Virus record (IMG/VR): IMGVR_UViG_3300025098_000307
Coordinates: 1 to 23,069 of that record
Direction: 5' to 3' (one strand)
Origin: a virus
DNA: 23,069 nucleotides
The notes under the pieces were generated by a model. That model was not told the origin of the DNA and ran no database searches. It saw only the letters and a list, made by a program, of their open reading frames with translations. Position 1 is the first letter of the stretch, and each line of letters opens with the position of its first letter. Positions 1 to 16,420 of this stretch are shown here, one piece after another. The position numbers and the translations under genes were made by a program.

Positions 1-123
1 TTTCTTGAGCCATGTTACCAAGTCCTGTCGAGCTTCTCTGATTTCTGCCTGCGCTTCATCGATAGCTTTGTCTGCCGAATCATGCGCGTCTTTGATTGCT
101 TTTTCTACGTTCTTCTTAGCCAT
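1..123 (-). CDS. Coiled-coil small protein, 3' end missing
   Basis: The first 41 codons of a gene that runs off the left edge of the window. The ATG is at 123 and is preceded by a strong ribosome binding site, GAGGTG, six bases or so upstream. The visible part begins MAKKNVEKAIKDAHDS and is almost entirely charged and alanine-rich, with the spacing expected of an amphipathic helix or coiled coil. It lies ten bases downstream of the SSB-like gene, so it is the most distal visible member of the leftward recombination operon. I do not recognise the family, and function cannot be assigned without the missing C-terminus. Confidence 0.7.
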   Translation of the reverse strand, partial: MAKKNVEKAIKDAHDSADKAIDEAQAEIREARQDLVTWLKK

Positions 124-133
124 GCTTCACCTC

Positions 134-433
134 TTAGAATGGTACGTCTTGTGATAGGAAATCATCTTGCTTCTTAGCCTGACCGCCTTCAGTGTAGATA
201 ACCTTGCAGTTACCTAGAATAGGTGGTCGCTCTGCACCAGACTCGCGCTCTTCTTTATCCTGAGACTGTGCAATAAAGCCATGATTGCCATACTGATCTT
301 CTTCAGTTGGGTTGATAAAGGTAGTCAGGTTTACATACTTAGCCACTGACCCATCTTTTTTAGTTACTTCTTTAATGCGTGACTTGTCAATCTTTGTCAC
401 ATCTATAGATACTGAGATTCCTATTTTACTCAC
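134..433 (-). CDS. Probable phage single-stranded DNA-binding protein
   Basis: A 99-residue protein starting MSKIGISVSIDVTKIDKSR. The N-terminal 75 residues read as a compact beta-rich domain (alternating hydrophobics in SVSIDVTKI and YVNLTTFI). The C-terminus is acidic and ends DDFLSQDVPF, like the acidic Asp-Phe-type tips (DDDIPF) by which bacterial SSB proteins recruit partners. The start overlaps the stop of the YqaJ exonuclease gene in an ATGA junction (430-433), so the two are probably translationally coupled. Context beside an exonuclease and an annealing protein supports a role in coating single strands during phage recombination or replication. The OB fold itself is inferred, not seen; an anti-nuclease or other small partner is the alternative. 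Confidence 0.6.
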   Translation of the reverse strand: MSKIGISVSIDVTKIDKSRIKEVTKKDGSVAKYVNLTTFINPTEEDQYGNHGFIAQSQDKEERESGAERPPILGNCKVIYTEGGQAKKQDDFLSQDVPF

Positions 434-1026
434 GTTAAATTCCTCACTTCTGATTTGATTTCCTCTACGGCTAGGTTTATTTGCTTAGCCAGTTTCTCTA
501 TAAACTCTTCATTGCGCTCTACTCTTACAACAAAGGGCTTCATATCAGGGTGGTATGACATAAAGTCCCACCATTCTCTGCCTGTAATATACAAACAACC
601 CTGTACCTGAGCATAGTGCTTACTCGGACATTCGCCCTTTCTGCTCCATGCTATGTGGTTCTTTGGTGCAGGGCATTTAAACTCAACACCCCCATCTTCA
701 CCAATCAATCCATCAGGGCTACAACCAAACTCTCCTGAGTCATCTAGTATAAACCCTACTTCTTCTACGTCAACACTGTGCATCAACTCATACATTGCGC
801 GAGCTTCAGGCTCTAACTCTGTACCTCTCTGCATCCATTCATTAACGTAGATTGGCTCTGATTCGCCCAGTATTCTTTCAGCTATTAAGATGTTTATGTA
901 TTCATCTGCTGATGCACTAGGCTTCCCTGCCGTAGTGATTAGTTTAGAGAACTGACTAGCACTGGGTCTGCCTAACCTAGCATCTAGCCATTCCTGTGTA
1001 CCTTGATCAGCTTGAAGTATTTGCAA
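430..1026 (-). CDS. YqaJ-family viral recombination exonuclease
   Basis: A 198-residue nuclease of the YqaJ / lambda-exonuclease (PD-(D/E)XK) family, which resects double-stranded ends to give single strands for an annealing protein. Family marks are clear: QGTQEWLDARLG near residues 8-19 followed by SAS, GTELEPEA near 68-75, the catalytic Asp in CSPDG (about D105), the E-x-K pair in VEFKCP (E115, K117), and the YAQVQGCLYITG segment downstream. The only start that keeps the QGT motif is TTG at 1026, with GGAG about eight bases upstream; it lies 20 bases inside the end of the annealing-protein gene. The low-efficiency TTG may set a lower level than the annealing protein. Family assignment is firm; the start is inferred from the motif and the binding site. 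Confidence 0.92.
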   Translation of the reverse strand: MQILQADQGTQEWLDARLGRPSASQFSKLITTAGKPSASADEYINILIAERILGESEPIYVNEWMQRGTELEPEARAMYELMHSVDVEEVGFILDDSGEFGCSPDGLIGEDGGVEFKCPAPKNHIAWSRKGECPSKHYAQVQGCLYITGREWWDFMSYHPDMKPFVVRVERNEEFIEKLAKQINLAVEEIKSEVRNLT

Positions 1027-1558
1027 CTTTCTTCTCCAACATTGCTAATGCTCTATCATACTGCGCCACTGACATATCATCTACAGTCTTGCACTTGAAC
1101 ACTTGGCAGAACTTCTTAACATCGCTCTCTGTAGCCTGTAACAATCCCTTTAACTTAGCTGACTGCTCTTCACTGATAGGTGTATCCAATACCGCTAACG
1201 GTAGGTCTTCACCTGCGTAGATGTAATGCCCCAAGCCAAACATAGCAATACACTTAACTAGACAGCGCATTCTAGCATCACTCACATCTCTTGATGTTGG
1301 GTTTACTACTGCCTTGTTCCTGTTATCCATCACTGGTAGCCACATACGTCTGGTGATACCGTCAACAGTCAACTCCACCTCTACCTCAACAGTACCATTC
1401 TGGTCTATGTTAGGCTCAAAGTAGCAGTAACTAGCATCAGGGTAATACTTCATCAGTGTACCCCAAGCATATGCCCATGAAAGGTAACTCAAGTTACCCT
1501 TCTTCTCGATGTTTTTAGATACGTCAATCGCTGACAGTGTTGTCCATACGTTACTCAT
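1007..1558 (-). CDS. DUF1071-type single-strand annealing protein
   Basis: A 183-residue protein beginning MSNVWTTLSAIDVSKNIEKK with the typical DUF1071 stretch LSYLSWAYAWGTLMKYYPDA near residues 22-42, then a beta-rich middle (TVEVEVELTVDG) and the conserved SDARMRCLVKCIAMFGLGHYIYAGEDL segment near 90-120, which recalls the RecT/Erf/Rad52-like annealing fold. Its neighbour is the YqaJ exonuclease, the standard pairing of resection nuclease with annealing protein in phage recombination systems. It starts with ATG at 1558, sharing one base with the stop of the upstream small gene (TAATG). The C-terminal 60 residues are helical and probably flexible. Assignment to DUF1071 rests on recognised motifs; biochemical activity is inferred from family and context. 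Confidence 0.82.
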   Translation of the reverse strand: MSNVWTTLSAIDVSKNIEKKGNLSYLSWAYAWGTLMKYYPDASYCYFEPNIDQNGTVEVEVELTVDGITRRMWLPVMDNRNKAVVNPTSRDVSDARMRCLVKCIAMFGLGHYIYAGEDLPLAVLDTPISEEQSAKLKGLLQATESDVKKFCQVFKCKTVDDMSVAQYDRALAMLEKKVANTSS

Positions 1559-1740
1559 TATGCACCCCCTAAGATTTGTTGAAATTGTTTCTCACTATAC
1601 CATGTAGCACTAGCCTCTTTAGCATATGCATCTGCATAGCCGAAGTAGTAGGCTTCTGGCTCACACTCGCGGGCAGGATGACCGTGTATACAGTCGAACT
1701 CGCCCTTCTCATAATCATTTAGTTTGCTTAAATCACTCAT
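1558..1740 (-). CDS. Small hypothetical protein in recombination operon
   Basis: A 60-residue protein, MSDLSKLNDYEKGEFDCIHG at its N-terminus, rich in acidic, tyrosine and alanine residues (GYADAYAKEASATWY). It has two cysteines (FDCIHGHPARECEPE) and two histidines between residues 17 and 27, close enough for a single metal site, though the spacing matches no motif I know. Its start overlaps the preceding gene by eight bases and its stop overlaps the annealing-protein start, so it is translated as part of the leftward operon. I do not recognise the family. Small proteins in this position are often host-takeover or recombination-modulating factors, but nothing here shows that. Confidence 0.65.
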   Translation of the reverse strand: MSDLSKLNDYEKGEFDCIHGHPARECEPEAYYFGYADAYAKEASATWYSEKQFQQILGGA

Positions 1741-2077
1741 ATCTCATCTCCATTTGTGTAATGTGTTCGTTGATGTAATCAACAGTTATCTGGTTAAGGT
1801 ATGATACAGATGCCTCAACTAGTTTACCAATCTCTTCATAGTTTTCGTCAGCCAGTGCCTGCAAAACTTGCTGATGATATTCTTCTATAAAGCCTAAATC
1901 ACCTAGATACTCACCTATAAAGGCATCTTGTAGCAAGCCTGCATCATTACGCATGATGTCAATAGAGTATCTCCAAGCTGTTTCTGTAACTTCTGCGTCA
2001 CTAGATGTGGTGGTGATGAGAGGGAACTGTGTTTCTGCCCTGTTGAAGTTGTATTCTTCAAATATTATTGGTTTCAT
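1733..2077 (-). CDS. Hypothetical acidic protein, first gene of leftward operon
   Basis: A 114-residue protein when started at the ATG at 2077 (MKPIIFEEYNFNRAE). The open frame extends upstream to an ATG at 2107, but that codon lies inside the -10 box of the leftward promoter and has no ribosome binding site, whereas 2077 is preceded by GAGGA at good spacing; 2077 is therefore the better start. The body is strongly acidic and helical (YEEIGKLVEASVSYLNQ), with no membrane segment or catalytic motif that I can see. It is the first gene of the leftward recombination operon and overlaps the next gene by eight bases. I do not recognise the family; its position fits an early regulatory or host-interaction protein, which is inference. 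Confidence 0.65.
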   Translation of the reverse strand: MKPIIFEEYNFNRAETQFPLITTTSSDAEVTETAWRYSIDIMRNDAGLLQDAFIGEYLGDLGFIEEYHQQVLQALADENYEEIGKLVEASVSYLNQITVDYINEHITQMEMRYE

Positions 2078-2105
2078 TTGTGTGTCCTCATGTTTGTGTA
2101 CTGAC

Positions 2106-2134
2106 ATATTAGTTAATGTTTACACCTATGTCAA
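2106..2134 (-). promoter_or_regulatory. Leftward early promoter
   Basis: On the minus strand a perfect TTGACA -35 box (2129-2134) is followed by a 17-base spacer and TAATAT (2106-2111, four of six matches to TATAAT). The predicted start near 2099 leaves a short leader ending in GAGGA before the ATG at 2077. Position and orientation fit the promoter of the leftward recombination operon. Confidence 0.65.
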
Positions 2135-2139
2135 TATTT

Positions 2140-2158
2140 ATTTGCAAATTAATTTACA
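2140..2158. promoter_or_regulatory. Candidate operator palindromes of the divergent control region
   Basis: ATTTGCAAAT (2140-2149) is a perfect ten-base palindrome, and TGCAAATTAATTTACA (2143-2158) is a sixteen-base palindrome with one mismatched pair. Both cover the -35 box and spacer of the rightward promoter. The half-site TTTRCA also occurs at 2119-2124, within the leftward promoter spacer. This arrangement is what a Cro/CI-type dimer would bind; the adjacent regulator at 2196 is the obvious candidate ligand. Binding is inferred. Confidence 0.4.
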
Positions 2159-2170
2159 TTGATATATGAT
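2142..2170 (+). promoter_or_regulatory. Rightward early promoter
   Basis: TTGCAA (2142-2147, four of six matches), a 17-base spacer and TATGAT (2165-2170, five of six) precede the regulator gene at 2196. The predicted start near 2177 is followed by AAGGAG at 2185-2190. It lies head to head with the leftward promoter, with seven bases between the two -35 boxes. Confidence 0.55.
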
Positions 2171-2195
2171 AGGTACAAATCACTAAGGAGATAAC

Positions 2196-2402
2196 ATGGA
2201 TATTAACAAATCATTAGATCATTTTATGAAAGAACACCGCATGACACAGGCAGATATAGCTAGAGAGGGTGGGTTGTCCCCTGCTACTGTCAGTTTGATT
2301 AGGAATAACCACAGAGAACCAAGCTGTGCCACCCTGATTGCATTGTCAGACCTATTCCAAGTACCAGTAAGCGACTTTATCAGGGCAGGTGAACATGGAT
2401 AA
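2196..2402 (+). CDS. Cro/CI-like XRE-family transcriptional regulator
   Basis: A 68-residue, single-domain DNA-binding protein. The helix-turn-helix lies near residues 16-38 (MTQADIAREGGLSPATVSLI), followed by the usual helices of the XRE/Cro fold (CATLIALSDLFQVPVSDFI). There is no C-terminal cleavage or oligomerisation domain of the CI/LexA type, so it is Cro-sized. AAGGAG sits five bases before the ATG. It is the first gene of the rightward operon, next to a divergent promoter pair with palindromic candidate operators, so it probably represses one or both early promoters. Its 3' end overlaps the replication initiator start by eight bases. A second, CI-like repressor is not seen in the window. 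Confidence 0.85.
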   Translation: MDINKSLDHFMKEHRMTQADIAREGGLSPATVSLIRNNHREPSCATLIALSDLFQVPVSDFIRAGEHG

Positions 2403-3108
2403 GAAAGGTTACTACGCAATCATCCCTGCTAACGTCAGATACGATGAGAGTCTAACGCCTAACGCCAAACTTTTATATGGTGAGATCACTGCACTTTGCA
2501 ATGAGAAAGGATATTGTTGGGCAACTAATGGATACTTTGCAGAACTATATAACGTCAGTAAGGTATCTATTAGTAAATGGATAGGTAGTCTTAAAGACGC
2601 AGGCTACGTCAGCATTGAGATGGAGCAGGATGGGGGTACTAAACAAATCTTAAATAGGTATATAAGATTAGTTAATGACCCTATTAAAGAAAAGTTAAAT
2701 ACCCCACAAAGAAAAGTTAATGGGGGTATTAAAGAAAAGTTTAAGGATAATAATACAGTTAATACTACATCTAATATTACAGTTAATAATATAGATCATT
2801 TTGAATCATTCTGGAGTGTTTACCCAAGAAAGGTTGGCAAGGCGCAAGCTAGGAAATCATGGGATAAGCTCAAACTGAATGACGATACTGTAAAGATGAT
2901 AGCAGAGAACATTGCATTGAGGATTAAGTATGGCGAGTGGAGTGATGCTAACAAAACATTCATACCCCATGCGTCAACCTATCTCAACAATGCAAGGTGG
3001 GAAGATGAGGTCGAAGCCCCTACACTAACTAACGTGGCGAAAAAACCGAATCAAATAAAGAAACGCGATATTGAAGTCGCACTAACCGATAGATCATGGG
3101 CAAACTAG
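2395..3108 (+). CDS. Phage replication initiator (lambda O-like helix-turn-helix protein)
   Basis: A 237-residue protein. Residues 1-80 form a winged-helix domain of the phage replication-protein type (KGYYAIIPANVRYDESLTPN, then ISKWIGSLKDAGYVSIEM). A low-complexity linker near residues 82-131 is rich in Lys and Asn. The C-terminal part carries FWSVYPRKVGKAQARKSW, a signature recurrent in phage O-type replication proteins. The linker DNA holds a phased repeat array, as lambda O carries its origin inside its gene. I chose ATG at 2395 (AGG ending five bases upstream); GTG at 2389 would add two residues. No helicase or helicase loader is recognisable nearby, so the protein presumably recruits host DnaB directly or through one of the small downstream proteins. 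Confidence 0.8.
   Translation: MDKKGYYAIIPANVRYDESLTPNAKLLYGEITALCNEKGYCWATNGYFAELYNVSKVSISKWIGSLKDAGYVSIEMEQDGGTKQILNRYIRLVNDPIKEKLNTPQRKVNGGIKEKFKDNNTVNTTSNITVNNIDHFESFWSVYPRKVGKAQARKSWDKLKLNDDTVKMIAENIALRIKYGEWSDANKTFIPHASTYLNNARWEDEVEAPTLTNVAKKPNQIKKRDIEVALTDRSWAN
2641..2788 (+). repeat. Iteron-like array, candidate replication origin inside initiator gene
   Basis: The 13-mer AAAGAAAAGTTAA occurs at 2686-2698 and 2708-2720, with a one-mismatch copy at 2731-2743 and degenerate copies (three mismatches each) starting at 2641 and 2663. The start-to-start distances are 22, 23, 22 and 23 bases, about two helical turns. An AT-rich stretch follows with two exact copies of TACAGTTAATA at 2754-2764 and 2778-2788. 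The middle copy is flanked by an eight-base inverted repeat (AATACCCC / GGGGTATT). The copies fall in different reading frames (KEKLN versus QRKVN), so the repeat is conserved as DNA, not as protein. Iterons followed by an AT-rich block inside the initiator gene is the lambda origin plan. Confidence 0.65.
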
Positions 3109-3117
3109 GAGTAATAA

Positions 3118-3375
3118 ATGTCTGAATACAATATACCATCTGACCTTTTTGAGCGCAGATACGATGCATATAAGAGCCATCCTGCATACAACGTGATAAT
3201 ACAATTACATCGCGCGTCTATGGCTATGGACTTTATGCAAATCAAGTTGGATATTGAAAGTGATGGACTGACTGACTTAAAAGAAATACTGGATAATTTA
3301 ATAAATTGCTTTATAGAGTTTGATGCAAGCAAAAAAGACTGGGATGAACACTTCCAATATAGGAGAATACAATGA
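3118..3375 (+). CDS. Small hypothetical early protein
   Basis: An 85-residue, mostly helical protein with mixed charge (MSEYNIPSDLFERRYDAYKS at the N-terminus; acidic middle LDIESDGLTDLKEILDNL). It has no signal peptide, membrane segment or recognisable motif. TAGGAG precedes the ATG by seven bases, and the stop overlaps the next start in an ATGA junction, so it belongs to the rightward early operon between the replication initiator and small DNA-binding proteins. A helicase-loading role has been taken by small proteins in this position in lambdoid phages, but no P-like motif is visible here. Function unknown. Confidence 0.65.
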   Translation: MSEYNIPSDLFERRYDAYKSHPAYNVIIQLHRASMAMDFMQIKLDIESDGLTDLKEILDNLINCFIEFDASKKDWDEHFQYRRIQ

Positions 3376-3590
3376 CACAATCAGAGAGAGTATTAAAATA
3401 TTTAGAAGATGGTAAGAAGCTAACCTGCCTGAATGCTTTTGAGGAGCTAGGCATTACACAAGTGGCGGCTCGAATCTTTGAGCTGAAAGAGAAAGGTCAC
3501 GACATAAAGACCAACAGAAGAAAGGTAACTAACCGTTACAATGAGATCTGTAGCGTAGCTGAATACTACATGGAGAGAAAATATGACTAA
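3372..3590 (+). CDS. Small winged-helix DNA-binding protein
   Basis: A 72-residue protein with the compact pattern of the small phage helix-turn-helix family often listed as HTH_39: MTQSERVLKYLEDGKKLT, then ALITQ-like helix (FEELGITQVAARIFELKEKG) and a basic wing (TNRRKVTNRYN). It is likely a DNA-binding accessory or regulator. It starts at an ATGA overlap with the preceding gene and ends inside the start of the next gene (eight-base overlap), so expression is coupled within the rightward early operon. The family assignment is from pattern memory; target sites cannot be read from this window. Confidence 0.65.
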   Translation: MTQSERVLKYLEDGKKLTCLNAFEELGITQVAARIFELKEKGHDIKTNRRKVTNRYNEICSVAEYYMERKYD

Positions 3591-3924
3591 CTATCAGAAG
3601 GCTAAAAAGCATGGCGGCATCAAAGGCTATAAGTATGTAGGCACTGAGAGTGATAAGTTTGTTACTGGTAACTACTACACTTATGAAGATATGAGTGAGC
3701 TTACAGGGCTGAGTGAGCATACACTTAGGTCTCGCATGGTGAAGAACAAGCTAAAAGAGAATGGCGAGAAAGTAATCACTGACTTACAGCTTATGCCAAA
3801 GAGAAAGCCGTTTACCAATCTTGATGGAACTAAATCACGTTATGTTTTAGGTCAAGACAATATCAAGAGATGTGAGACACAATCAGAAATTATGATGAAC
3901 AAATATTTGAGGTTAGCGTTATGA
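3583..3924 (+). CDS. Small protein with MerR/excisionase-like helix-turn-helix segment
   Basis: A 113-residue basic protein. Residues around 28-50 (YTYEDMSELTGLSEHTLRSR) resemble the first helices of MerR- or excisionase-like winged domains, where a Leu-Thr-Gly-Leu-Ser turn precedes the recognition helix. The remainder is Lys-rich (QLMPKRKPFTNLDGTKSRY) without other motifs. GGAG lies seven bases before the ATG. It overlaps the preceding gene by eight bases and the NinB-like gene by four (ATGA). Possible roles are transcription control of late genes or an excision factor; the sequence does not decide between them. Confidence 0.55.
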   Translation: MTNYQKAKKHGGIKGYKYVGTESDKFVTGNYYTYEDMSELTGLSEHTLRSRMVKNKLKENGEKVITDLQLMPKRKPFTNLDGTKSRYVLGQDNIKRCETQSEIMMNKYLRLAL

Positions 3925-4364
3925 ATGGTGCCGCTTGGACTGTCAACTGTCCTAAGAAACTCACAATGTATAAAGAATTTGTCGAGCAAATGTATGAGAA
4001 GCATAAGTACATTACGTTTGAATACAAGCTAGGTAAGCCTAGGAGTATTAAGCAAAACAATGCTATGTGGGTATTCTGTAAGGAGATAGCCAAGCGGTGC
4101 AATGATGCAGGGTTTCCTTGCATGATAAGTAGTCCTGTTTTAACAAAAGATATTGAAGCACCGTGGACTGACCGCAGTGTAATGGACTTGATATGGATGA
4201 CAGTACAGCGCGCTATGTATCCTGAGAAGGATGAAAGTAGTAGGCAGTTGTCTACAGATGAAGTATCGTTAGTAGCTGAAACAATAACCAGACACCTAGC
4301 AGAGAAGTACAAACTATATGTTACATTCCCTACAAAGGATTTTAAGAATGGCAATAAAGCGTGA
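3921..4364 (+). CDS. NinB-like recombination mediator
   Basis: A 147-residue protein with the layout of lambda NinB (Orf): a short beta-rich N-terminus, a central RSIKQNNAMWVFCKEIAKRC (about residues 33-52) comparable with the RSLDQN-x-x-LW stretch of lambda NinB, and a C-terminal helical region ending LYVTFPTKDFK. NinB binds single-stranded DNA and helps load recombinases, acting at forks and breaks. Here it sits directly before an HNH nuclease, echoing the ninB-ninG neighbourhood of lambdoid phages. The start is an ATGA overlap with the preceding gene. The family call rests on this motif and gene order; overall similarity to lambda NinB is low. Confidence 0.65.
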   Translation: MNGAAWTVNCPKKLTMYKEFVEQMYEKHKYITFEYKLGKPRSIKQNNAMWVFCKEIAKRCNDAGFPCMISSPVLTKDIEAPWTDRSVMDLIWMTVQRAMYPEKDESSRQLSTDEVSLVAETITRHLAEKYKLYVTFPTKDFKNGNKA

Positions 4365-4737
4365 TGCGGCAGACAAGTGGTTTAGTGATGTAGTTAGGAA
4401 GAAAGCAGGTCATGTGTGTGAAAGCTGTGGAAAGGTAGAAGGCAGGATGGAGTGCGCTCACATCTATGGAAGGTCGGCTAAGTCAGTGAGGTGGTCAATG
4501 GACAATGCAGTATGTCTGTGCCATTACTGTCACATGCAGTTCACTGCCAACCCACTAGAGTTTACAGCGTGGTTGGAAGAGACTTTAGGCGAGGGACACA
4601 TGGAGATGCTGAGAGAGAAGTGGCAAGTCCTGATGAAGACGAACAAGCAGTTAAGAAAAGAAATAGCAAAACATTACAGGGAAGAATTTAAGAAGATGGA
4701 TCAAGATGAAACCTATGAACCAGTAAGTTATAACTGA
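4348..4737 (+). CDS. HNH endonuclease, NinG/Rap-like by position
   Basis: A 129-residue nuclease starting MAIKRDAADKWF. It carries a zinc-binding C24-x2-C27, the catalytic-type AHI (H38), an Asn at about 53, and C58-x2-C61-H62, the order expected of a zinc-finger HNH domain. The C-terminus is a charged helix. The frame is open further upstream, but ATG 4348 has AGGA at suitable spacing, and the longer form would only add ten residues read from inside ninB. It overlaps the NinB-like gene by 17 bases. Next to NinB, an HNH protein may play the role of lambda NinG (Rap), a structure-specific recombination nuclease. A free-standing homing-type or restriction-like nuclease is the alternative, made less likely by the tight operon packing. 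Confidence 0.8.
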   Translation: MAIKRDAADKWFSDVVRKKAGHVCESCGKVEGRMECAHIYGRSAKSVRWSMDNAVCLCHYCHMQFTANPLEFTAWLEETLGEGHMEMLREKWQVLMKTNKQLRKEIAKHYREEFKKMDQDETYEPVSYN

Positions 4738-4745
4738 GGTGTGAT

Positions 4746-4985
4746 ATGAGTGATCAAATATTAGGCATTATGTTTGACAAGATAGACCAGTATGGGCTGA
4801 CTGATATACGTGAAGAGTTAATCAATGTAATAGATGCGGCTGTGTATAACAATGCTAGTGGCTATGCTAGATATGAAATAGCAAAGTTGTGGGATCAGGT
4901 TGAAGAAGAGATAGCTAAACAGTCTGAGCCACCCACGGAAGAGCAATTAAGTCTTGAACATCCTGAGATGTTTGATATAGAATAG
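4746..4985 (+). CDS. Small acidic hypothetical protein
   Basis: A 79-residue, strongly acidic protein (C-terminus EEQLSLEHPEMFDIE) with no membrane segment or known motif. GAGGTG sits a few bases before the ATG. It is the last gene of the rightward early operon and is followed, about 40 bases on, by a strong intrinsic terminator. Acidic proteins of this size in early phage operons often act as DNA mimics or as partners of host enzymes, but nothing in the sequence specifies that here. Confidence 0.6.
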   Translation: MSDQILGIMFDKIDQYGLTDIREELINVIDAAVYNNASGYARYEIAKLWDQVEEEIAKQSEPPTEEQLSLEHPEMFDIE

Positions 4986-5023
4986 AAATACATATCCCCT
5001 AGTATGTGTAGTATGTCCACTTT

Positions 5024-5049
5024 GCCCCATGTATTTGGGGCTTTTTTTT
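5024..5049 (+). terminator. Intrinsic terminator ending the rightward early operon
   Basis: The stem GCCCCA (5024-5029) pairs with TGGGGC (5036-5041) around a six-base loop, and eight T residues follow (5042-5049). This is a textbook rho-independent terminator on the plus strand; the minus strand lacks a matching T tract. It separates the early operon from the small basic gene cluster. Confidence 0.85.
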
Positions 5050-5057
5050 GGTATAAT
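5049..5057 (+). promoter_or_regulatory. Extended -10 promoter for the small basic gene cluster
   Basis: TGGTATAAT is a perfect extended -10 (TG-N-TATAAT) whose first base is the last T of the terminator tract. No convincing -35 lies at 16-18 bases, as is usual for extended -10 promoters. With TATAAT ending at 5057, transcription should start at about 5064, the A of the ATG of the first gene, implying a leaderless or nearly leaderless transcript. Confidence 0.55.
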
Positions 5058-5063
5058 AGGGCA

Positions 5064-5339
5064 ATGTCTAAGTCCCTATTAAAACGTATTGGCGTATCAG
5101 GTTATAACAAGCCTAAGCGCACCCCATCCCACCCTACTAAGTCTCATGTAGTAGTGGCAAAGTCTGGCGATAAAGTAAAAACCATTCGCTACGGTCAACA
5201 AGGCGTATCAGGAGCAGGCAGTAACCCAAAGACTGCTAAGCAAAAGGCTAGACGCAAATCATTCAAAGCTCGCCATGCTAAGAACATCGCTAAAGGTAAG
5301 ATGTCTGCGGCATACTGGGCAAACAAATCAAAGTGGTAG
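5064..5339 (+). CDS. Very basic small protein 1 (DUF6321-like)
   Basis: A 91-residue protein beginning MSKSLLKRIGVSGYNKPKRT. By eye it has 18 Lys and 6 Arg against a single Asp and no Glu, with a Lys/Arg-rich middle (KQKARRKSFKARHAK) and the end MSAAYWANKSKW. I recall this pattern from small proteins of many marine phages grouped as DUF6321. The frame is open upstream to 5004, but that would start before the terminator; ATG 5064 is the start implied by the extended -10 and by the family N-terminus. AGGG lies only two or three bases upstream, too close for a normal binding site. The charge suggests binding to DNA, RNA or the virion interior; function is unknown. Confidence 0.8.
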   Translation: MSKSLLKRIGVSGYNKPKRTPSHPTKSHVVVAKSGDKVKTIRYGQQGVSGAGSNPKTAKQKARRKSFKARHAKNIAKGKMSAAYWANKSKW

Positions 5340-5348
5340 GAGATAACC

Positions 5349-5456
5349 ATGCCATACGGTAAAGGTACATACGGTTCTAAGGTGGGCAGACCGCCTAAGA
5401 AGAAAAAGAAAAAGTCATTACTAGGAATGGGCAATGGCAGTAAACGCGGCAGGTAA
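5349..5456 (+). CDS. Very basic 35-residue protein 2
   Basis: A 35-residue reading frame: it starts MPYGKGTYGSKVGRPPK, has six consecutive Lys near residues 17-22 and ends GSKRGR. By eye it has 12 basic and no acidic residues. AGGAG is seven bases before the ATG, a strong binding site for so short a gene. Its last 23 bases overlap the next gene in another frame. I recall closely similar MPYGKGTYG-type peptides in marine phage genomes, where they are usually missed because of their size. It is presumably intrinsically disordered and nucleic-acid binding, but that is inference. Confidence 0.7.
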   Translation: MPYGKGTYGSKVGRPPKKKKKKSLLGMGNGSKRGR

Positions 5457-5598
5457 TTATACCAAGCCAACCATGCGTAAGAACCTGTTTAACAGAATTA
5501 AAGCAGGGAGCAAGGGCGGTAATGCAGGGCAATGGTCAGCGCGTAAGGCGCAGATGCTTGCACGTATGTACAAAGCTAAAGGCGGTGGGTACAAGTAA
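5434..5598 (+). CDS. Very basic 54-residue protein 3
   Basis: A 54-residue frame starting MAVNAAGNYTKPTMRKNLF and continuing with a Gly/Lys/Arg-rich segment (IKAGSKGGNAGQWSARKAQM) and the end YKAKGGGYK. It has 12 basic and no acidic residues by eye. GGA lies about nine bases before the ATG, within the end of gene 2. The pattern is one I recall as conserved in many aquatic phages, often beside proteins like numbers 1 and 4. Its stop overlaps the next ATG by one base (TAATG at 5596-5600). Conservation of the residue pattern argues that it is a real gene despite its length; function unknown. Confidence 0.75.
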   Translation: MAVNAAGNYTKPTMRKNLFNRIKAGSKGGNAGQWSARKAQMLARMYKAKGGGYK

Positions 5599-5855
5599 TG
5601 CTTGCTAAATCACAGCGTAGCCTAAAGAAGTGGACTAAACAGGACTGGGGAACTAAATCAGGCAAACCTAGTACGCAAGGACCAAAGGCGACAGGGGAAA
5701 GATACCTGCCTAGAAAAGCAAGACAAGCACTCAGCCCTCAAGAGTATGCCGCCACATCAGCAAAGAAAAGAAGAGATACTGCCGCAGGAAAGCAGTATAG
5801 TTCTCAGCCTAAGAAGATTAAAAAGAAAGCCAGACGTAAATCCCTTTTAGCCTAG
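5598..5855 (+). CDS. Very basic small protein 4 (DUF5872-like)
   Basis: An 85-residue protein starting MLAKSQRSLKKWTKQDWGTK. It has about 25 Lys/Arg against 4 acidic residues and a C-terminal KKIKKKARRKSLLA tail. The central RYLPRKARQALSPQEYAATS stretch is a pattern I associate with DUF5872-type small proteins of phages. It begins at a TAATG junction with gene 3 and is the last gene of the cluster. Its TAG stop interleaves with the stop of the convergent endolysin gene in a CTAG (5852-5855), so there is no room for a terminator. A virion or DNA-associated role is suggested by charge only. Confidence 0.75.
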   Translation: MLAKSQRSLKKWTKQDWGTKSGKPSTQGPKATGERYLPRKARQALSPQEYAATSAKKRRDTAAGKQYSSQPKKIKKKARRKSLLA

Positions 5856-6196
5856 TATTGCCAGACCACTGGTGTAGTCTCTCTGATGTCCACATGGATG
5901 AATGTCTTAGCAACACCTATTCCTGTAAACCCTAGACGCATAGCCTCACGCACAATCTTATATCTTTCTGCACCACCAGAGACAGCAATGTCAGCCGCTA
6001 TACCCTGAGCGTGAGTTCCGGGCTTTGACTTACGAGCCTCGATAGGATGTGATGGATCTCTATAACCAGAAGTAATAATAAAACTAAAGCCACATGCTTC
6101 ACGCAACTCATCTAGCTTATGGATGAACTCTTCTTTCATCTCATTGTTGCTAGTACACTGGCAGTCAAACTCACTTAACTTAAAATACTTAAACAT
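5852..6196 (-). CDS. Endolysin, peptidase M15 family
   Basis: A 114-residue zinc peptidase that would cut peptide cross-links of peptidoglycan at lysis. The M15_3 pattern is complete: SGYRDPSHP (residues 43-51), the first zinc ligands in GTHAQGIAADI (H62 and D69), and the last in FIHVDIR (H101, with D103). The N-terminal FKYFKLSEFDCQ is the usual lead-in of this family. It has no signal peptide, so it needs a holin for release. GAGGTG precedes the ATG, and the start overlaps the previous stop (TAATG). It is the last gene of the late operon and ends head-to-tail against the small basic cluster. The family assignment is firm. Confidence 0.92.
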   Translation of the reverse strand: MFKYFKLSEFDCQCTSNNEMKEEFIHKLDELREACGFSFIITSGYRDPSHPIEARKSKPGTHAQGIAADIAVSGGAERYKIVREAMRLGFTGIGVAKTFIHVDIRETTPVVWQY

Positions 6197-6618
6197 TATT
6201 CACCTCGATACGGATTTGATAGGTAGTCCATGCCTTGCCAGATGGAATCTATTTCTTTATCAATCTTATCTAGCCTACCCTGTATCTTATCACTATTCTC
6301 TGTAGCTAACTCAGCTTTTTCTACAGTTACCTGCATCTCTGTGACTAGCTTCTCTACATCAACTACTCTTTCCTGCAGGGCTATCAATTCCTTTTGTCTT
6401 TCCATAATGGTTTCTAGGTTACTTCCTAAACCAACCAATTGTTCTTGCATCTCTGATGTATCAGGTATCTGTATAGCCTCTACAGTCTCTAGTCTTGAAT
6501 ACAAACTACTGGCTGTCCATACAGTACCCCCGATACTTGTACCTATCGTCAGGACAATGGCAATCCACACACCTTTGAGTTTAGTACCACCTATATTAAC
6601 TTCTGTATCAGCAAGCAC
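6196..6618 (-). CDS. Membrane-anchored coiled-coil protein of the lysis region
   Basis: A 140-residue protein with one hydrophobic segment at about residues 14-37 (GVWIAIVLTIGTSIGGTVW) followed by a long coiled coil (residues 40-130). The start is GTG at 6618, overlapping the upstream TAG stop (TAGTG), so it is coupled to the exported protein before it. The topology (short N-terminal tail, one membrane pass, periplasmic coiled coil) is that of an inner-membrane spanin or of a holin accessory protein. I find no embedded Rz1-like lipoprotein frame, so the spanin reading is not proven. Position immediately before the endolysin supports a role in lysis. Confidence 0.65.
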   Translation of the reverse strand: MLADTEVNIGGTKLKGVWIAIVLTIGTSIGGTVWTASSLYSRLETVEAIQIPDTSEMQEQLVGLGSNLETIMERQKELIALQERVVDVEKLVTEMQVTVEKAELATENSDKIQGRLDKIDKEIDSIWQGMDYLSNPYRGE

Positions 6619-7424
6619 TAGTATTCCTCACAGTAAAAACAATCGTCAGCAGTTGGTCCAGTCTGGTAGAACTCACCCTCTTGACCCGCACCTAAGACAT
6701 CAGCCGCACTTACAAACGCACCTTCTAAACTGTACATCATAACCACGTTAGTCGTATGGAATGACAAAGAAGCATACCCAGTAGATGAATCAAATGACGC
6801 ATCATAGGCATTCATAAAGTCATCACCCATCATATCTACTTCTGCCTGCATATCTTGTACTAAGCCTTCATCATTCTGCACAGCTACGAATGCGGCAAAG
6901 GTTTGGGCTGTCTCTTCCACTGTGTCGAGGGAATCATTGTAGGCATCAACATGTGTGTCAGTAATCTCAACATCATTGTTAGCAATGAATGACTGTATCT
7001 CTTGTGCCTGTACAGCATCACCACTCTCTTCTGTTTCTACCGCCATGTCATTAACAACAACAGCTTTGATCAATACCTCTGACGCGCCCACAAATGCGCT
7101 TACAGCCGTGTTAAGTTCCATCTTAGCCTGATCTACTTGTTCGTCTACAAACTCGTTAGCGGTCATTGTATAGACTGCTTGCGTTGTCATTTGTAAAGCA
7201 TCATTGTAGGCTTGAGCTTGCTCGTAAGTTAACTTGCTGTCATCTACGACACTATCGGGAGCAATCAATCCCTGATCAGATAATGTTTGTAGTGCAGATA
7301 CTCTCTGTATGCCTGAGTCGAACGTGTCAACAATGCTCTGGCTAGTATCAACTAAGTTAGATACATCAATGCTGTGGGCGGAAACGCTCAGACACGCTAA
7401 GATTGTCGCTAGTATCTTCTTCAT
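6618..7424 (-). CDS. Exported acidic protein of unknown function
   Basis: A 268-residue protein with a clear signal peptide (MKKILATILACLSVSAHS, likely cleaved before ID) and a long, acidic, Ala/Val-rich helical body (many Asp/Glu, few Lys/Arg) ending in a short cysteine-containing tail, DDCFYCEEY. The two C-terminal cysteines could form a disulphide in the periplasm. AGGGG lies about eight bases upstream of the ATG. The first 59 bases of the gene overlap the end of the preceding gene in another frame. A lipobox-like ILAC is present at residue 11 but is early for a lipoprotein. It may be a periplasmic or cell-surface factor such as a lysis or superinfection factor; no family is recognised. 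Confidence 0.65.
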   Translation of the reverse strand: MKKILATILACLSVSAHSIDVSNLVDTSQSIVDTFDSGIQRVSALQTLSDQGLIAPDSVVDDSKLTYEQAQAYNDALQMTTQAVYTMTANEFVDEQVDQAKMELNTAVSAFVGASEVLIKAVVVNDMAVETEESGDAVQAQEIQSFIANNDVEITDTHVDAYNDSLDTVEETAQTFAAFVAVQNDEGLVQDMQAEVDMMGDDFMNAYDASFDSSTGYASLSFHTTNVVMMYSLEGAFVSAADVLGAGQEGEFYQTGPTADDCFYCEEY

Positions 7425-7974
7425 CTATTGTTACCCCTATTCCTAGTAGTTGGTTGTAGTGTGTTTCTTTGTCTTCATAGTCAGGAATAAATAATGTCGG
7501 GTTATTCTTCATGGCTATAAAGGCATTCTTGCCAAAGACCATACGACCATTAACTAATATGGGGCATGGTGTTCCTGCGATAAACATGGCTGTCCAGTTA
7601 TTATTGTTCTGACACATACGCGATACTGCCGCGATAGACATGCCCATGTCTTTTAAAACCTTACTGTCTTTCCTTCTGTTACACTCTTCATCTTGTACGT
7701 ATCGACCACCATTAATACCTAAGACATCTATCTGCATACCTGCACTTGCAGACCGTAGACAAGTATCCTGACCTGATGACATAAGGGATGGAGATATAGC
7801 AGTGTTTACTGGGTTAGGCTTCCCTGCCCCTGCCCCTACGTTCTGGGTTGTAGTGCTTGTTGTAACATTATTACTGTTAACCGTAGAGTCTTGTGTGTTG
7901 TTGTTTAGATCACCGTTCTGTTGGCTGTCTGACGCATACACTGACACAGAGAATAACAGTAACAGCAGTCTCAC
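7366..7974 (-). CDS. Exported cysteine-containing protein
   Basis: A 202-residue protein with an N-terminal signal peptide (MRLLLLLFSVSVYA, cleavage likely before SDS), then an Asn/Thr-rich linker (residues 20-50), then a domain with four cysteines (in QDTCLRSAS, DEECNRRK, SRMCQNNN and GTPCPIL) spaced for two disulphides. I recall this QDTC...CQ...GTPCP pattern from proteins near the lysis genes of marine phages, but have no function for it. The start is GTG at 7974, overlapping the holin stop (GTGA), without a strong binding site, so translation probably depends on coupling. It shares 59 bases with the next gene, also exported. Confidence 0.7.
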   Translation of the reverse strand: MRLLLLLFSVSVYASDSQQNGDLNNNTQDSTVNSNNVTTSTTTQNVGAGAGKPNPVNTAISPSLMSSGQDTCLRSASAGMQIDVLGINGGRYVQDEECNRRKDSKVLKDMGMSIAAVSRMCQNNNNWTAMFIAGTPCPILVNGRMVFGKNAFIAMKNNPTLFIPDYEDKETHYNQLLGIGVTIDEEDTSDNLSVSERFRPQH

Positions 7975-8342
7975 TTACGCAAACTCATCAGCTTAGATAC
8001 GCCCTTGATGCCAAACGAACTAGAGATAGCTATGAATAGTAGATACTGATACCACTCTGGTAAGTTAGACAAGGCAACAAAGCCATCCTCTACCCTGTCT
8101 ATAACCGTAGTGTCATTTACTACTATTGCGTAACCAATCATAAAGATAGGCACAGCTAATACTAGTGTCCAGAACTCATCCTTCCATGAGTTAGTAGAAG
8201 CATCTACAGCTTTAGATTCCCAGTCACTATCACTCTGTATGACCTTCATCTTAGCCTCATGCTTGGCTTGCTTTTCTTCTGCCTTGTTCTTTAGGTAGCC
8301 ACCTGCAATGTTAGCAATAGGACCTATCAATGTTTGCCACAT
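7971..8342 (-). CDS. Probable holin (3-TM GTA-holin-like)
   Basis: A 123-residue membrane protein from ATG 8342 (MWQTLIGPIANIAGGYLKN). GGAG is six bases upstream; the frame could also start at TTG 8354, adding four residues, but the ATG has the better site. After an N-terminal hydrophobic helix and a charged segment it has two membrane helices at about residues 57-75 (FWTLVLAVPIFMIGYAIVV) and 97-115 (WYQYLLFIAISSSFGIKG). This layout matches the holin family known from gene-transfer agents. It would permeabilise the inner membrane to release the endolysin, which lies three genes downstream in the same operon. Holin is the best call; a membrane virion protein is possible. Confidence 0.7.
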   Translation of the reverse strand: MWQTLIGPIANIAGGYLKNKAEEKQAKHEAKMKVIQSDSDWESKAVDASTNSWKDEFWTLVLAVPIFMIGYAIVVNDTTVIDRVEDGFVALSNLPEWYQYLLFIAISSSFGIKGVSKLMSLRK

Positions 8343-12264: not shown

Positions 12265-14592
12265 TTAATCCTGCACAAATTCTGGAGTTAATTCACCTTG
12301 TTGCCACCACTGACCTTGTCCATATTCAGTCTGTCGCTGTCTTGCCATTTTATTTAATGTTCTTTCCCTATTAGGGTCTACTTCTTTTCTAAACGCTTCT
12401 ATCATGTTGTCAGTGAATAACTGCGTATACCATGTATCTGGCGTTAAACCTTTTATAAAGTTCAAGCCATCACCTAGTATGTTTGTATCTTCACCTTTTA
12501 ATGCGTCTTTAATGTTACCTTTAGTCATCTTAATCAACTTAGAAGCTGTAGAAGCCTGTACGCCTGCTATGCTTTCAGTTAAAGACTGCCCATACTTTTC
12601 TGAATCAGCTAATATAAAGTCCGCAAACAATGAGCCAGAGCCACCCATAATAAATGCGTCAAATACAAATGTGCCGTCTACGTTTCTAGCATCACGCCCT
12701 TTAGCTAGTTCTTTTGCTTGTAATGATAATCCACCCATCATAGTAGAAGCCGCGGCAAAGGTAGTTAGATAGGATATTGTGCCACCCATTGTTGCTTGTG
12801 ACATACCACGCATCCAGTGATTCATAGCTACAGTTATAGGAAATGATTTAATCTGCATAACACTTCGCACAGCCTGACCTACTCCTGTGCCTCTTTGCGT
12901 GCCTGCTGTTGTAATAGCTTGCGTTCTAGCATCCATAGTGGGGGTAGCGTATTCCATCTCTTGTAGTATCATTCTATGGAACTTCATGCTTTTATCTAAT
13001 GTTACATTAGCAAACTTAGCACCTTTAAAGTCAAGCACTTCAGTCTTTCTAAATGCATCCCAATCTTCTTTAGTAATACCATAACGCTCTAGCACTTCCT
13101 TAAACTCTAAATCATCGAATGACTTTTTGAAGCTATCAGACAACATTCCTGCAAACTCCATAGTAAAGCCTTTTTGCATAGCCTGTGTCCAAGCCTCTAA
13201 CCCTGATGCACGCAATGTTACTTCAGCAACTTTAGCTGTTGTTCCAGAGCCATATGTATCAGTGTATCTATTTAAACTATGCGCTCTGCCTAATGTGGTA
13301 TCAAATACAAAGCCCATTCTTGCAAGCACGTTGCGGGCTTCTTCGCCACCACCTGCGGCTTGCTCTTTAAGTAACTGCGCTTGTCGCATAAACACTTTAG
13401 TCGCGCTCATTTTATTGTAATTAGCAGTAATTGCAGTAGTAGCTACGTCAGTGAACGATGCTAGTGCCGCGCCACCAAGTTTAGATGCAACCTCTACATT
13501 ACGCCATGCTTGCATAGTATCAGCTATTCCAGTTACCTGACCGCCATTTACCTCACCACTAATCACTTTATATAAGTTGTCGTAATACTGTAGCTTTGCT
13601 CCGCCCAAAGGTTTGCCTCGTTTTTGAGACTCTCGTACTGCATAGTTTTTTAACCCTTCATACATATTTTTAGGGTTTGTCCCTAGCACTTGCATGAGTG
13701 CAATATCGCCTGCTTTGTCTTGTATGTGGTCAGTAATCGTTGTTAATATATCACCTCTACCAAATTTGTTCTGATAGCTAATCCATGAATCGCCATCTTT
13801 AAAATATAAAAACCTTTTTTCACTACCTTTGCGAGACAGTTTGCGACCAAGACCTCTAGGCACACTTAATCCCTGCGCTTTATTCATGCCGCCAGTAGTA
13901 ATGGTTTGATAGGTGTATCGTAAACCTTCATCAAATTGTGCGTCATTTAGTGGCTTGCCTAAATCATCTAGCATTTTTGTTCTATCTAATAAAGGCTTTA
14001 TGTAATCAACCCACTCATCTTCAGACAGTTTAGAGACTCTTGTCATGTCGTGTTTTTGTGGCAATATCCAGTCTTCATTTTTGCTGATACTGCCGCCTAC
14101 CGCATTAAAATCTAAACGTATGTTTTCCATCATTACGTTATAATCTTTTGCAATTTGCATTATGTTTGCATCATCTACAGCTTTGCCATGCAATGCGCGT
14201 ATAAAGTTATTAATGCCTTCTTTATCTTGTGACAATCCAAAGGTAGTAGTTCTAAATCTCTCTAAACCATTAGCCCAACCTGCAAGAAACTTATTAGTAT
14301 ATGTTTTTTGCAAAAAATCTACATTTGCATACTTAGCTTTACCTGTTATATCTTTGCCCATCAAAGATGCCAATCCTGCACCCAGTCCTTCTGGGTGTGA
14401 CTCTGCGGCTTCTATTGCATTAGATAAACGTATAGCATCTACAACCTTTTCTCTTCGCTCGCGTGATAATGTTTCAGCAATATCTCTAATCATTTCTGCT
14501 TGATCAGGTGCGGCAAGTATTTCATCAGCCATTGTTTTGCTAATCTTTTTGCTTTTAACAGCTTCATTTATACAATAATTGAAACTAGACAC
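12265..14592 (-). CDS. Large internal virion protein (gp16-like C-terminal part)
   Basis: A 775-residue, mainly helical virion protein from a GTG at 14592. The start is supported by GAGGTG five bases upstream and by an in-frame TGA just before it. The N-terminus (NYCINEAVKSKKISKTMADE) looks like the beginning of a separate gene in related phages. Residues 1-400 are charged; the later part holds several short Gly/Ala-rich hydrophobic segments (TISYLTTFAAASTMMGGLSL; MGGSGSLFADFILA). By position between another internal protein and the fibre it corresponds to the last internal core protein of T7 (gp16), ejected with the DNA. No transglycosylase motif of gp16 is visible. Virion location is inferred from gene order. 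Confidence 0.7.
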   Translation of the reverse strand: MSSFNYCINEAVKSKKISKTMADEILAAPDQAEMIRDIAETLSRERREKVVDAIRLSNAIEAAESHPEGLGAGLASLMGKDITGKAKYANVDFLQKTYTNKFLAGWANGLERFRTTTFGLSQDKEGINNFIRALHGKAVDDANIMQIAKDYNVMMENIRLDFNAVGGSISKNEDWILPQKHDMTRVSKLSEDEWVDYIKPLLDRTKMLDDLGKPLNDAQFDEGLRYTYQTITTGGMNKAQGLSVPRGLGRKLSRKGSEKRFLYFKDGDSWISYQNKFGRGDILTTITDHIQDKAGDIALMQVLGTNPKNMYEGLKNYAVRESQKRGKPLGGAKLQYYDNLYKVISGEVNGGQVTGIADTMQAWRNVEVASKLGGAALASFTDVATTAITANYNKMSATKVFMRQAQLLKEQAAGGGEEARNVLARMGFVFDTTLGRAHSLNRYTDTYGSGTTAKVAEVTLRASGLEAWTQAMQKGFTMEFAGMLSDSFKKSFDDLEFKEVLERYGITKEDWDAFRKTEVLDFKGAKFANVTLDKSMKFHRMILQEMEYATPTMDARTQAITTAGTQRGTGVGQAVRSVMQIKSFPITVAMNHWMRGMSQATMGGTISYLTTFAAASTMMGGLSLQAKELAKGRDARNVDGTFVFDAFIMGGSGSLFADFILADSEKYGQSLTESIAGVQASTASKLIKMTKGNIKDALKGEDTNILGDGLNFIKGLTPDTWYTQLFTDNMIEAFRKEVDPNRERTLNKMARQRQTEYGQGQWWQQGELTPEFVQD

Positions 14593-16420
14593 GCGAACAC
14601 CTCATTATTGATTCTAAGCCTTCAAGATCATCATCTATAGCTTTGATTACGTCATCAGCAGACGTCAAGACAACATTTCCATCTTCGTCTAAATCAAATA
14701 ATCTTTTGTTTTCCAAAGTATTGTAGATAGCTATTTCCTCATTATATGCTTTAGTAAAGCCTGCTTCAGTTAGTGCCGCATCTTGCAAGCTAGTAGTATT
14801 AGCTTTAGGTGCAGGCGGTTTAGCCTTTGGCATGTATTCTTCTGGCTTAACTGTATAAGTTTCTATAGCCTCTCTTACAGCTTCATTGTTTTCAAGAATG
14901 CGTAAATCTTTTTCTATATTAGCTTTAAACAAATCGTTAAATGCTATTTCAGCATCATCTGTTGCTTCTAACTTGTTTATCAGGCTATCAACCTCTTTTG
15001 CACTGGAACTATCTGCATCTAATGTCTTCAGCTTATCTCTTAGCGACTGTATTGCGATTTGACGCGCCTCATCGATAGACTTGACCGTACCCTCTGCAAA
15101 CCCTGAAAACGCCTCTAAAGCTAATTCCTCGGCTCTGAAGCCCTTTTGCAATCTCAAATTTTCAGCTATTTTTTCTATTGCATAAACAGATTGTGTTTCT
15201 GGTGTACTGTTTTGCTGTATCCAGTCATCTAGTTCTTTTTGTACTTTTGCATCTAGTGACGGTACTTGCCCTTGCTTAATGCGCTCAAGCTGTGATTGTG
15301 CCGCTAATGCCTCAGCATCTTTATTAATTTGTTGTTGTGTTCTTTTTATTAAAGGATTGTATTTATCACGTAATGCTTTTCTTTCCGCGCTTGCTTTAGC
15401 CTTTAATGCTTTTTTGTCTTTAGTTTTTTTTGCAGCTTTTGTTTCTTTAGCTAAGCGTTTTGAAATTTTATCTAAATCTAACTCTAGTCTTCTTTCTAGG
15501 CTACGAAGTTCGCCATTTAGTTTTTTTCTTTCTGGCACTGTGAGCCTTTCGCCTGCTGTGGCAGTTAGCTTGCTAGTTTGTTCATTGAACAATTTTGTTC
15601 TAACAATCTCTATATTTTTAGCTGTTGGAATGCTTGCGGCTTTTCCTTCAATAATCGATGGTTGCCATTTTATTGGTGGCTTAGTGTATATGCCTTCCCT
15701 TACGCTTAAATACTTTGCCGCTTTTTCTGCTGATTTTGCCAAATAACCTGCAACGCCTTGTACACCGCCACCTAATACGCCTGCTGTAATAGCTGTGATG
15801 CCTATTACGCGCAATGAATCTTCAACTGTATATGGTGAATCAATATCATTTTTATGCGAGTAAACTAAAGGCTGTATAGCCATTTCGGAAGCTAATGATA
15901 CGCCTGCCATATTTCTTGCGCCTAGCATTGACCTGCTTAACACACTAAGACCTTTAGCCCCTGCACCTACACCGCCAAATGGCAATGATGCTATATTAAT
16001 AGGGTCTGACATATAAGAGCCTGCCATGCCTAAAAACTGAGCAAAACCATTGCCGCGCTCCATGACATCTTGATTACGCTCTCTGCGCTCTGCAAGCATC
16101 TTGTTACGCTCTTCAAAAAGCTCTCTGTTGCTTTTTACTAATCCAGTATCTTCAGCTAACTTGTCATAGTTAAACGCACCATTTCTATTTGTATATGCGT
16201 CAAAATCCATACCGTCTTTTATTAACTGACGAACTGTATTTTTTCTGTCAAAATATGCTTGGTTGTTAAACAAAGATGAGTTGGACCTTTCTTCATCTCG
16301 CACAAATCCATAAGAAGCCTGCATGGTTTCAAAAAACGTAGGGTCATCAGGAGCATCATAGTCTATAGGTTTAAGACTAAGTAATGTTTCTCTGTAACCA
16401 CGTTCTGATAATAAAGGCAT
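14585..16420 (-). CDS. Large internal virion protein
   Basis: A 611-residue protein. Residues 1-130 are charged and Asn-rich (DDPTFFETMQASYGFVRDEE). Two Gly/Ala-rich hydrophobic stretches follow at about 150-170 (SLPFGGVGAGAKGLSVLSRS) and 205-235 (VIGITAITAGVLGGGVQG). A long Lys/Glu/Leu coiled-coil region occupies residues 260-480. The acidic C-terminus ends IDDDLEGLESIMRCSRV. The profile of an N-terminal globular part, membrane-active segments and coiled coil fits an ejected internal protein. It overlaps the 775-residue gene by eight bases; the two lengths together approach the roughly 1300 residues of T7 gp16, so they may be a split equivalent. Confidence 0.7.
   Translation of the reverse strand: MPLLSERGYRETLLSLKPIDYDAPDDPTFFETMQASYGFVRDEERSNSSLFNNQAYFDRKNTVRQLIKDGMDFDAYTNRNGAFNYDKLAEDTGLVKSNRELFEERNKMLAERRERNQDVMERGNGFAQFLGMAGSYMSDPINIASLPFGGVGAGAKGLSVLSRSMLGARNMAGVSLASEMAIQPLVYSHKNDIDSPYTVEDSLRVIGITAITAGVLGGGVQGVAGYLAKSAEKAAKYLSVREGIYTKPPIKWQPSIIEGKAASIPTAKNIEIVRTKLFNEQTSKLTATAGERLTVPERKKLNGELRSLERRLELDLDKISKRLAKETKAAKKTKDKKALKAKASAERKALRDKYNPLIKRTQQQINKDAEALAAQSQLERIKQGQVPSLDAKVQKELDDWIQQNSTPETQSVYAIEKIAENLRLQKGFRAEELALEAFSGFAEGTVKSIDEARQIAIQSLRDKLKTLDADSSSAKEVDSLINKLEATDDAEIAFNDLFKANIEKDLRILENNEAVREAIETYTVKPEEYMPKAKPPAPKANTTSLQDAALTEAGFTKAYNEEIAIYNTLENKRLFDLDEDGNVVLTSADDVIKAIDDDLEGLESIMRCSRV

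Follow-up and report, generated by a model that had tools for sequence, protein, structure and literature searches.

Results and discussion

Gene content of the cassette

The window, i.e. the whole stretch of DNA that was analysed, comprises an entire virus record of 23,069 bases and is probably a genome fragment. Replication genes lie on its left. To their right come a plus-strand operon that includes NinB- and NinG-like genes, then the cassette described here, and finally a convergent operon on the minus strand, in which large ORFs accompany the genes for an M15-peptidase endolysin and the major head protein. The two recombination genes directly upstream of the cassette, NinB/Orf-like (3921-4364) and NinG/Rap-like (4318-4737), recall the nin region of lambda. 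The same virus species has been sampled twice, positions 858-8945 of contig L475 being 99.8% identical to positions 1-8088 of the window, whole cassette included. The features of the locus are as follows:

5024-5049, plus strand: intrinsic terminator GCCCCA-TGTATT-TGGGGC then T8, found by terminator scan; ends the upstream operon and leads into the P1 promoter
5049-5057, plus strand: extended -10 promoter TGGTATAAT, six bases 5' of the P1 ATG; mRNA predicted to be leaderless
5064-5339, plus strand: P1, basic protein of 91 aa, phrog_7595
5070-5081, plus strand: KSLL tag near the N-terminus of P1 (residues 3-6)
5349-5456, plus strand: P2, peptide of 35 aa, MPYGKGTYGSKVGRPPKKKKKKSLLGMGNGSKRGR
5385-5393, plus strand: nearly invariant Gly-Arg-Pro of P2, an AT-hook-like core (not a proven AT-hook)
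5412-5423, plus strand: KSLL tag of P2 (residues 22-25)
5434-5598, plus strand: P3, 54 aa, N-terminal half of a DUF5872-type module with WSARKAQ motif, phrog_17747
5598-5855, plus strand: P4, 85 aa, phrog_14910; forms the C-terminal half of the same DUF5872-type module, with an initiation codon that shares a base with the stop codon of P3
5838-5849, plus strand: KSLL tag near the C-terminus of P4 (residues 81-84)
5852-6196, minus strand: convergent M15-peptidase endolysin at the end of the late operon; context, outside the cassette

All four frames were found open and intact in an ORF check, in exact agreement with the 91, 35, 54 and 85 residues given in a preliminary description of this DNA. 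The proportions of basic to acidic residues (K+R:D+E) counted there by eye were identical to the computed values of 24:1, 12:0, 12:0 and 25:4 for P1 to P4, for which isoelectric points of 11.2-11.6 were calculated. The overlaps of one and 23 bases reported there were located at P3/P4 (TAATG) and P2/P3, respectively, while a gap of 9 bases separates P1 from P2, and the good ribosome-binding site ascribed to the first of the short genes is AGGAGATAACCATG, ahead of P2. All four proteins belong to families conserved far above chance, which confirms these tiny basic ORFs as real genes.

Co-occurrence and order in phage contigs, a check proposed with the preliminary description, bore out a recurrent association. 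Among the matches listed, P3 and P4 occurred together in 102 viral stretches, with P3 first in 101 and never on opposite strands, and the full order P1-P2-P3-P4 was found in 15 stretches, which amount to roughly twelve contigs as some had been fetched twice; the counts from the P1-, P2- and P3-type scans are likewise of matches listed, i.e. lower bounds. The four genes had been presented as a joint unit: they do recur together but can be separated, as P1 and P2 were each found in the absence of the others and P2-P3-P4 is swapped out in sister genomes.

Families of P1 and P2

P1 matched phrog_7595 (1e-38), and an alignment of 45 sequences contained 32 invariant columns. It was also similar to part of phrog_220, a minor head protein and DNA pilot (2e-6). 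The frame holds an earlier ATG at 5004; 5064 was taken as the start because both the relatives and the conserved promoter favour it. In two cyanosiphophages P1 is flanked by the genes for the MuF head protein and the coat protein, and in CRP-6 it is fused in front of an XkdF prohead protease, a fusion that at most hints at cleavage by the prohead protease. The structure model of P1 was poor (pLDDT 59). Roseobacter phage SIO1 also carries P1 (AF189021.1 24065-24277), at a place without an annotated gene.

Membership of P1 in DUF6321, a family with 547 phage records, was considered and rejected. The DUF6321 proteins of cyanophages and pelagiphages are similar in being small basic domains of the head or terminase region that adjoin P2 orthologues in T7-like phages, and in virion proteins of cyanomyoviruses they are joined to P3/P4-like segments. 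However, hhalign gave a probability of 4-6%, partial matches were weak (E 4e-4 to 1.5e-3) and a short RKSF-AR segment is all that P1 has in common with them, so that homology is not supported. Searches of PDB sequences with P1 and with one DUF6321 protein gave no match, and DUF6321 was not found by name in a literature search in which DUF5872 does appear.

P2 belongs to a largely unannotated family with the pattern MPxGKGTYGxKxGRPxKK. Since it is too short for family libraries, its relatives were sought with a degenerate DNA pattern for the first nine residues, and at least 120 stretches were obtained. Codons 13-15, which fall outside the searched pattern, encode Gly-Arg-Pro in nearly all of the 138 sequences listed, with third positions varying freely. 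Together with the flanking lysines, and with R or K before GRP in about half of the relatives, this core makes P2 resemble, by eye, a minimal AT-hook. Assignment to that family was not retained, as the Pfam AT_hook model gave at best a non-significant match in one relative (E 1.2) and none for P2 itself, a model so short being a weak test.

Prochlorococcus phage P-SCSP1u encodes, without an annotated gene, a 23-aa peptide (OM416779.1 11465-11536) that agrees with P2 at every one of residues 1-22. The absence of annotated genes for P1 in SIO1 and P2 in P-SCSP1 phages indicates that databases under-count both families. In the passages found of the P-SCSP1u cryo-EM paper, small proteins are unassigned and mass spectrometry is unmentioned. 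In T7-like phages the P2-type peptide is accompanied by DUF6321 and by LYANI, a further small basic protein named after its own sequence, either between scaffold and capsid or directly behind the capsid gene. Among the matches listed, 54 of 115 P2 loci had one of the small basic families at most 1.5 kb away, and all such neighbours (89/89) were on the same strand.

P3 and P4 as halves of one protein

Clear PHROG matches were obtained for P3 (phrog_17747, 1e-33) and P4 (phrog_14910, 1e-30). At bacterial loci both profiles fell within a single ORF in the same order in 80 of 80 cases, with matches in most of about 1e-18 for P3 and 1e-26 for P4; such single ORFs are also present on Azospirillum and Phaeobacter plasmids. 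Pfam assigns the bacterial proteins to DUF5872, the Azospirillum member scoring 28.5 bits against a cut-off of 27.5. Neither P3 nor P4 alone matched the DUF5872 model at E up to 1, and their membership is drawn from the full-length bacterial proteins, which carry both domains in order. Judged from these sequences, P3 and P4 represent the two halves of a single DUF5872-type protein that is split in the phage, and the TAATG overlap suggests coupled translation. In S-EIV1 the P3 domain runs on into a P4-like start.

Bacterial proteins of this kind (Azospirillum, Sphingomonas, Methylobacterium and others) differ from the phage version, which consists of two genes without Rho_N. The Phaeobacter protein continues into a clear Rho_N domain, whereas the Azospirillum match to Rho_N was below the cut-off; Rho_N domains bind nucleic acids. 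A fair structure model of a bacterial DUF5872 protein (pLDDT 82) gave no match in the PDB by fold recognition. Chromosomal DUF5872-type genes (L193-L272) are common in Sphingomonas, Methylobacterium, Aureimonas and some Pseudomonas/Stutzerimonas.

A terminator abutting a promoter

The cassette had been credited with a promoter of its own, a claim that is confirmed and sharpened by a conserved extended -10 element before P1. The stem of the terminator (5024-5041) and its T-tract, which extends to 5049, directly abut TGGTATAAT (5049-5057), giving the pattern TGnTATAAT-N6-ATG. A scan for TATAAT-N6-ATG ahead of P1-type proteins returned 59 loci including the window. Among 34 distinct P1 upstream regions, the TG of the extended -10 was present in 31 and a T-tract in 17, with several different stems. 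Because this first scan had fixed the spacing at six, a control scan was run with spacings of 1 to 30, in which five P1 starts lay at spacing 6 and five others were spread across five other spacings. With about two chance occurrences of TGnTATAAT expected per window, it is its conserved place, not its mere presence, that matters. By standard promoter geometry, TATAAT-N6-ATG should place the transcription start close to the A of the start codon, and the P1 mRNA would thus be leaderless.

Genomic neighbourhood and virion records

The position of the cassette between early and late regions, as first described, holds for the clade of the window, where the cassette lies outside the late operon. Elsewhere it is found inside the late head module, in the portal-scaffold interval. 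More specifically, the gene order in sister phages is endolysin-TerL-portal-P1-P2-P3-P4-two small ORFs-scaffold-major head protein. This head-building and packaging neighbourhood supports the link to packaging that had been suggested.

Virion records exist for remote relatives of the four families, not for exact members. Cyanophage S-SCSM1 gp29 combines segments resembling P4 and P3 with a DUF6321 domain at its C-terminus. In the S-SCSM1 paper, mass spectrometry is reported to have identified 45 virion proteins (PMC9602691). The sequence record citing this paper labels gp29 as a virion protein, which is taken here to mean detection in the virion. Similarly, S-CREM2 gp137, which carries a C-terminal DUF6321 domain (3.5e-10), was represented by four unique peptides in purified virions (PMC10665884). 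P3 and P4 are linked to the S-SCSM1 segments via DUF5872 and phage C72C1, with weak pairwise similarity between these segments and the bridging C72C1 proteins (E 5e-4 and 0.004).

A swappable slot and a common terminal tag

Within the clade, the slot between P1 and the endolysin is filled by P2 or KKY plus either LYANI or P3+P4, in varying combinations; in sister genomes other small basic proteins replace P2-P3-P4 behind the same P1 promoter. KKY is a family of ultra-short basic peptides (MPxVGKKxYxYTxxGxAAAKKAAKK...) that takes the position of P2 in part of the clade, and it was seen behind P1 in contigs L390, L407, L423, L438, L473, L482, L487 and L491. Several micro-proteins of this swappable set fall below gene-calling size.

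In the clade of the window, mutually unrelated families carry a terminal K-S-[L/M]-L: P2, LYANI, KKY and P4, as well as P1 at its N-terminus; P3 is without it. The motif was picked after inspection of the data and one clade dominates, so the following counts overstate independence. The tag was present on P2 in 9/9 distinct clade sequences vs 4/134 elsewhere, on LYANI in 15/17 vs 0/18, on KKY in 3/7 vs 0/2 and near the N-terminus of P1 in 33/39 vs 2/122, the tagged version of P1 being a few substitutions from its usual DSRLxRAG start. At the C-terminus of P4 it was found in the window and in L428; some P4 proteins, including a P4 subfamily elsewhere, also have KSLL close to the N-terminus. Genomes with tagged P1 had tagged P2 (18/18), LYANI (24/26) and KKY (4/4), the two LYANI exceptions reading KTSLLSK, with SLL retained. 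The corresponding figures for genomes with untagged P1 were 0/28, 0/12 and 0/7. The codons of the tag differ among the copies in the window, which indicates that amino acids rather than DNA are conserved and that there was no recent copying of DNA.

The strongest part of this case is the C-terminal tag on mutually unrelated families. Such tagging of unrelated basic proteins suggests cargo that would be loaded into the head with the DNA. Nothing convincing was found on recognised scaffold, capsid or portal proteins of the examined contigs, and the other tagged ORFs in clade contigs were, by inspection, mostly spurious-looking frames. The MPLLSER start of a large late ORF of 611 aa (14585-16420, minus strand) was rejected as a different motif. 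MPLLSER or MNLLSER opens this ORF in the window and relatives (L082 4805-6688, minus strand; L391), with a faint likeness to SLLSR of the sister P1 that is possibly due to chance.

Proposed function

The reading that we favour, with modest confidence, is that the cassette products are basic internal proteins, targeted to the head, which bind the packaged DNA and work like the internal proteins of T4. It draws on the portal-scaffold/capsid interval occupied by the sister cassette, on P1 near or fused to head proteins and P2-type peptides beside scaffold or capsid, on the bacterial protein formed by P3+P4 and then Rho_N, on the virion relatives with DUF6321 and P3/P4-like segments, and on the genome-concordant tag. 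From these we infer virion presence, DNA binding and a function for the tag. The T4 internal proteins are diverse and have only a capsid targeting sequence in common, and their lysines contact packaged DNA (PMC3012670). IPI, IPII and IPIII thus offer an analogy of working, as diverse small basic proteins with one short common sequence; in the cassette, K-S-[L/M]-L is a short, genome-concordant sequence on otherwise unrelated proteins whose targeting role is putative. The cassette tag differs in having about four residues and in standing at either end, and no kinship of sequence is claimed.

On this model P1 would be made from its own, probably leaderless, transcript and P2 from its own ribosome-binding site, while coupled translation of P3 and P4 would supply the two halves of a DUF5872-type nucleic-acid-binding module. 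The tag on P1, P2 and P4 would dock to a partner in head assembly, be it scaffold, portal or capsid interior, and so allow entry into the prohead, where the lysines of the cassette proteins would neutralise and organise the packaged DNA. The proteins may also accompany the DNA out of the particle and serve to protect or condense it once inside the next host. A more far-reaching version, that in marine podoviruses related to that of the window a position-independent four-residue tag loads at least four swappable, unrelated micro-proteins into the head as a protamine-like coat of the DNA, expressed from a terminator-promoter hybrid as leaderless mRNA, is put forward tentatively, as a doubtful extension. 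Counting against internal head proteins are the place of the window's cassette outside the late operon, the untagged P3, the weak pairwise link to the virion relatives, the unsupported homology of P1 and DUF6321, the restriction of the tag mainly to one clade and the nearness of the P1 tag to the usual P1 start.

Alternatively, the proteins could act in assembly only, as packaging or charge cofactors that attach to DNA, scaffold or portal during formation and filling of the prohead and are absent from the finished particle. The head-module position and the P1-protease fusion would suit such a role, a domain ahead of a prohead protease being one that could be cleaved and lost, but proteins remotely related to them, with P3/P4-like and DUF6321 segments, are among those recorded from purified virions, and we regard this explanation as unlikely. 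We give slightly less credence to intracellular DNA or RNA binders that seize the host nucleoid, transcription or translation and have no part in the particle. A promoter of their own outside the late operon in the window's clade, chromosomal bacterial homologues with the nucleic-acid-binding Rho_N and the AT-hook-like look of GRP and lysines in P2 speak for them; most other contexts seen are nevertheless head modules, P1 is fused to head proteins and the AT-hook profile match was not significant. Specific support was absent for the host nucleoid takeover proposed in the preliminary description, the interpretation of which is overall partly supported.

The tag itself might have no head partner and instead link the basic proteins to one another, set their stability or reflect recombination among neighbours. 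In the contigs it was seen on cassette members and on none of the scaffold, capsid or portal proteins recognised there, and the tagged families adjoin and exchange positions; both are consistent with this. Its N-terminal place in P1 and C-terminal place in the others are unlike N- or C-degrons, however, and the differing codons in the window argue against recent DNA copying; we hold such a role possible but improbable.

Conclusions

Beyond what had been described, the analysis adds that P3 and P4 form one split family, that a leaderless mRNA is to be expected from the promoter and that the small proteins carry a common terminal tag. Peptides of the P1, P2 and P3 kinds and DUF6321 proteins are very common in ocean phages and without assigned function, P2 being mostly unannotated. 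The common tag and the full-length bacterial homologue turn these small anonymous ORFs into a testable idea on what is packaged alongside the DNA by marine phages. Should the tag indeed load cargo, it could serve to bring other proteins into such heads.
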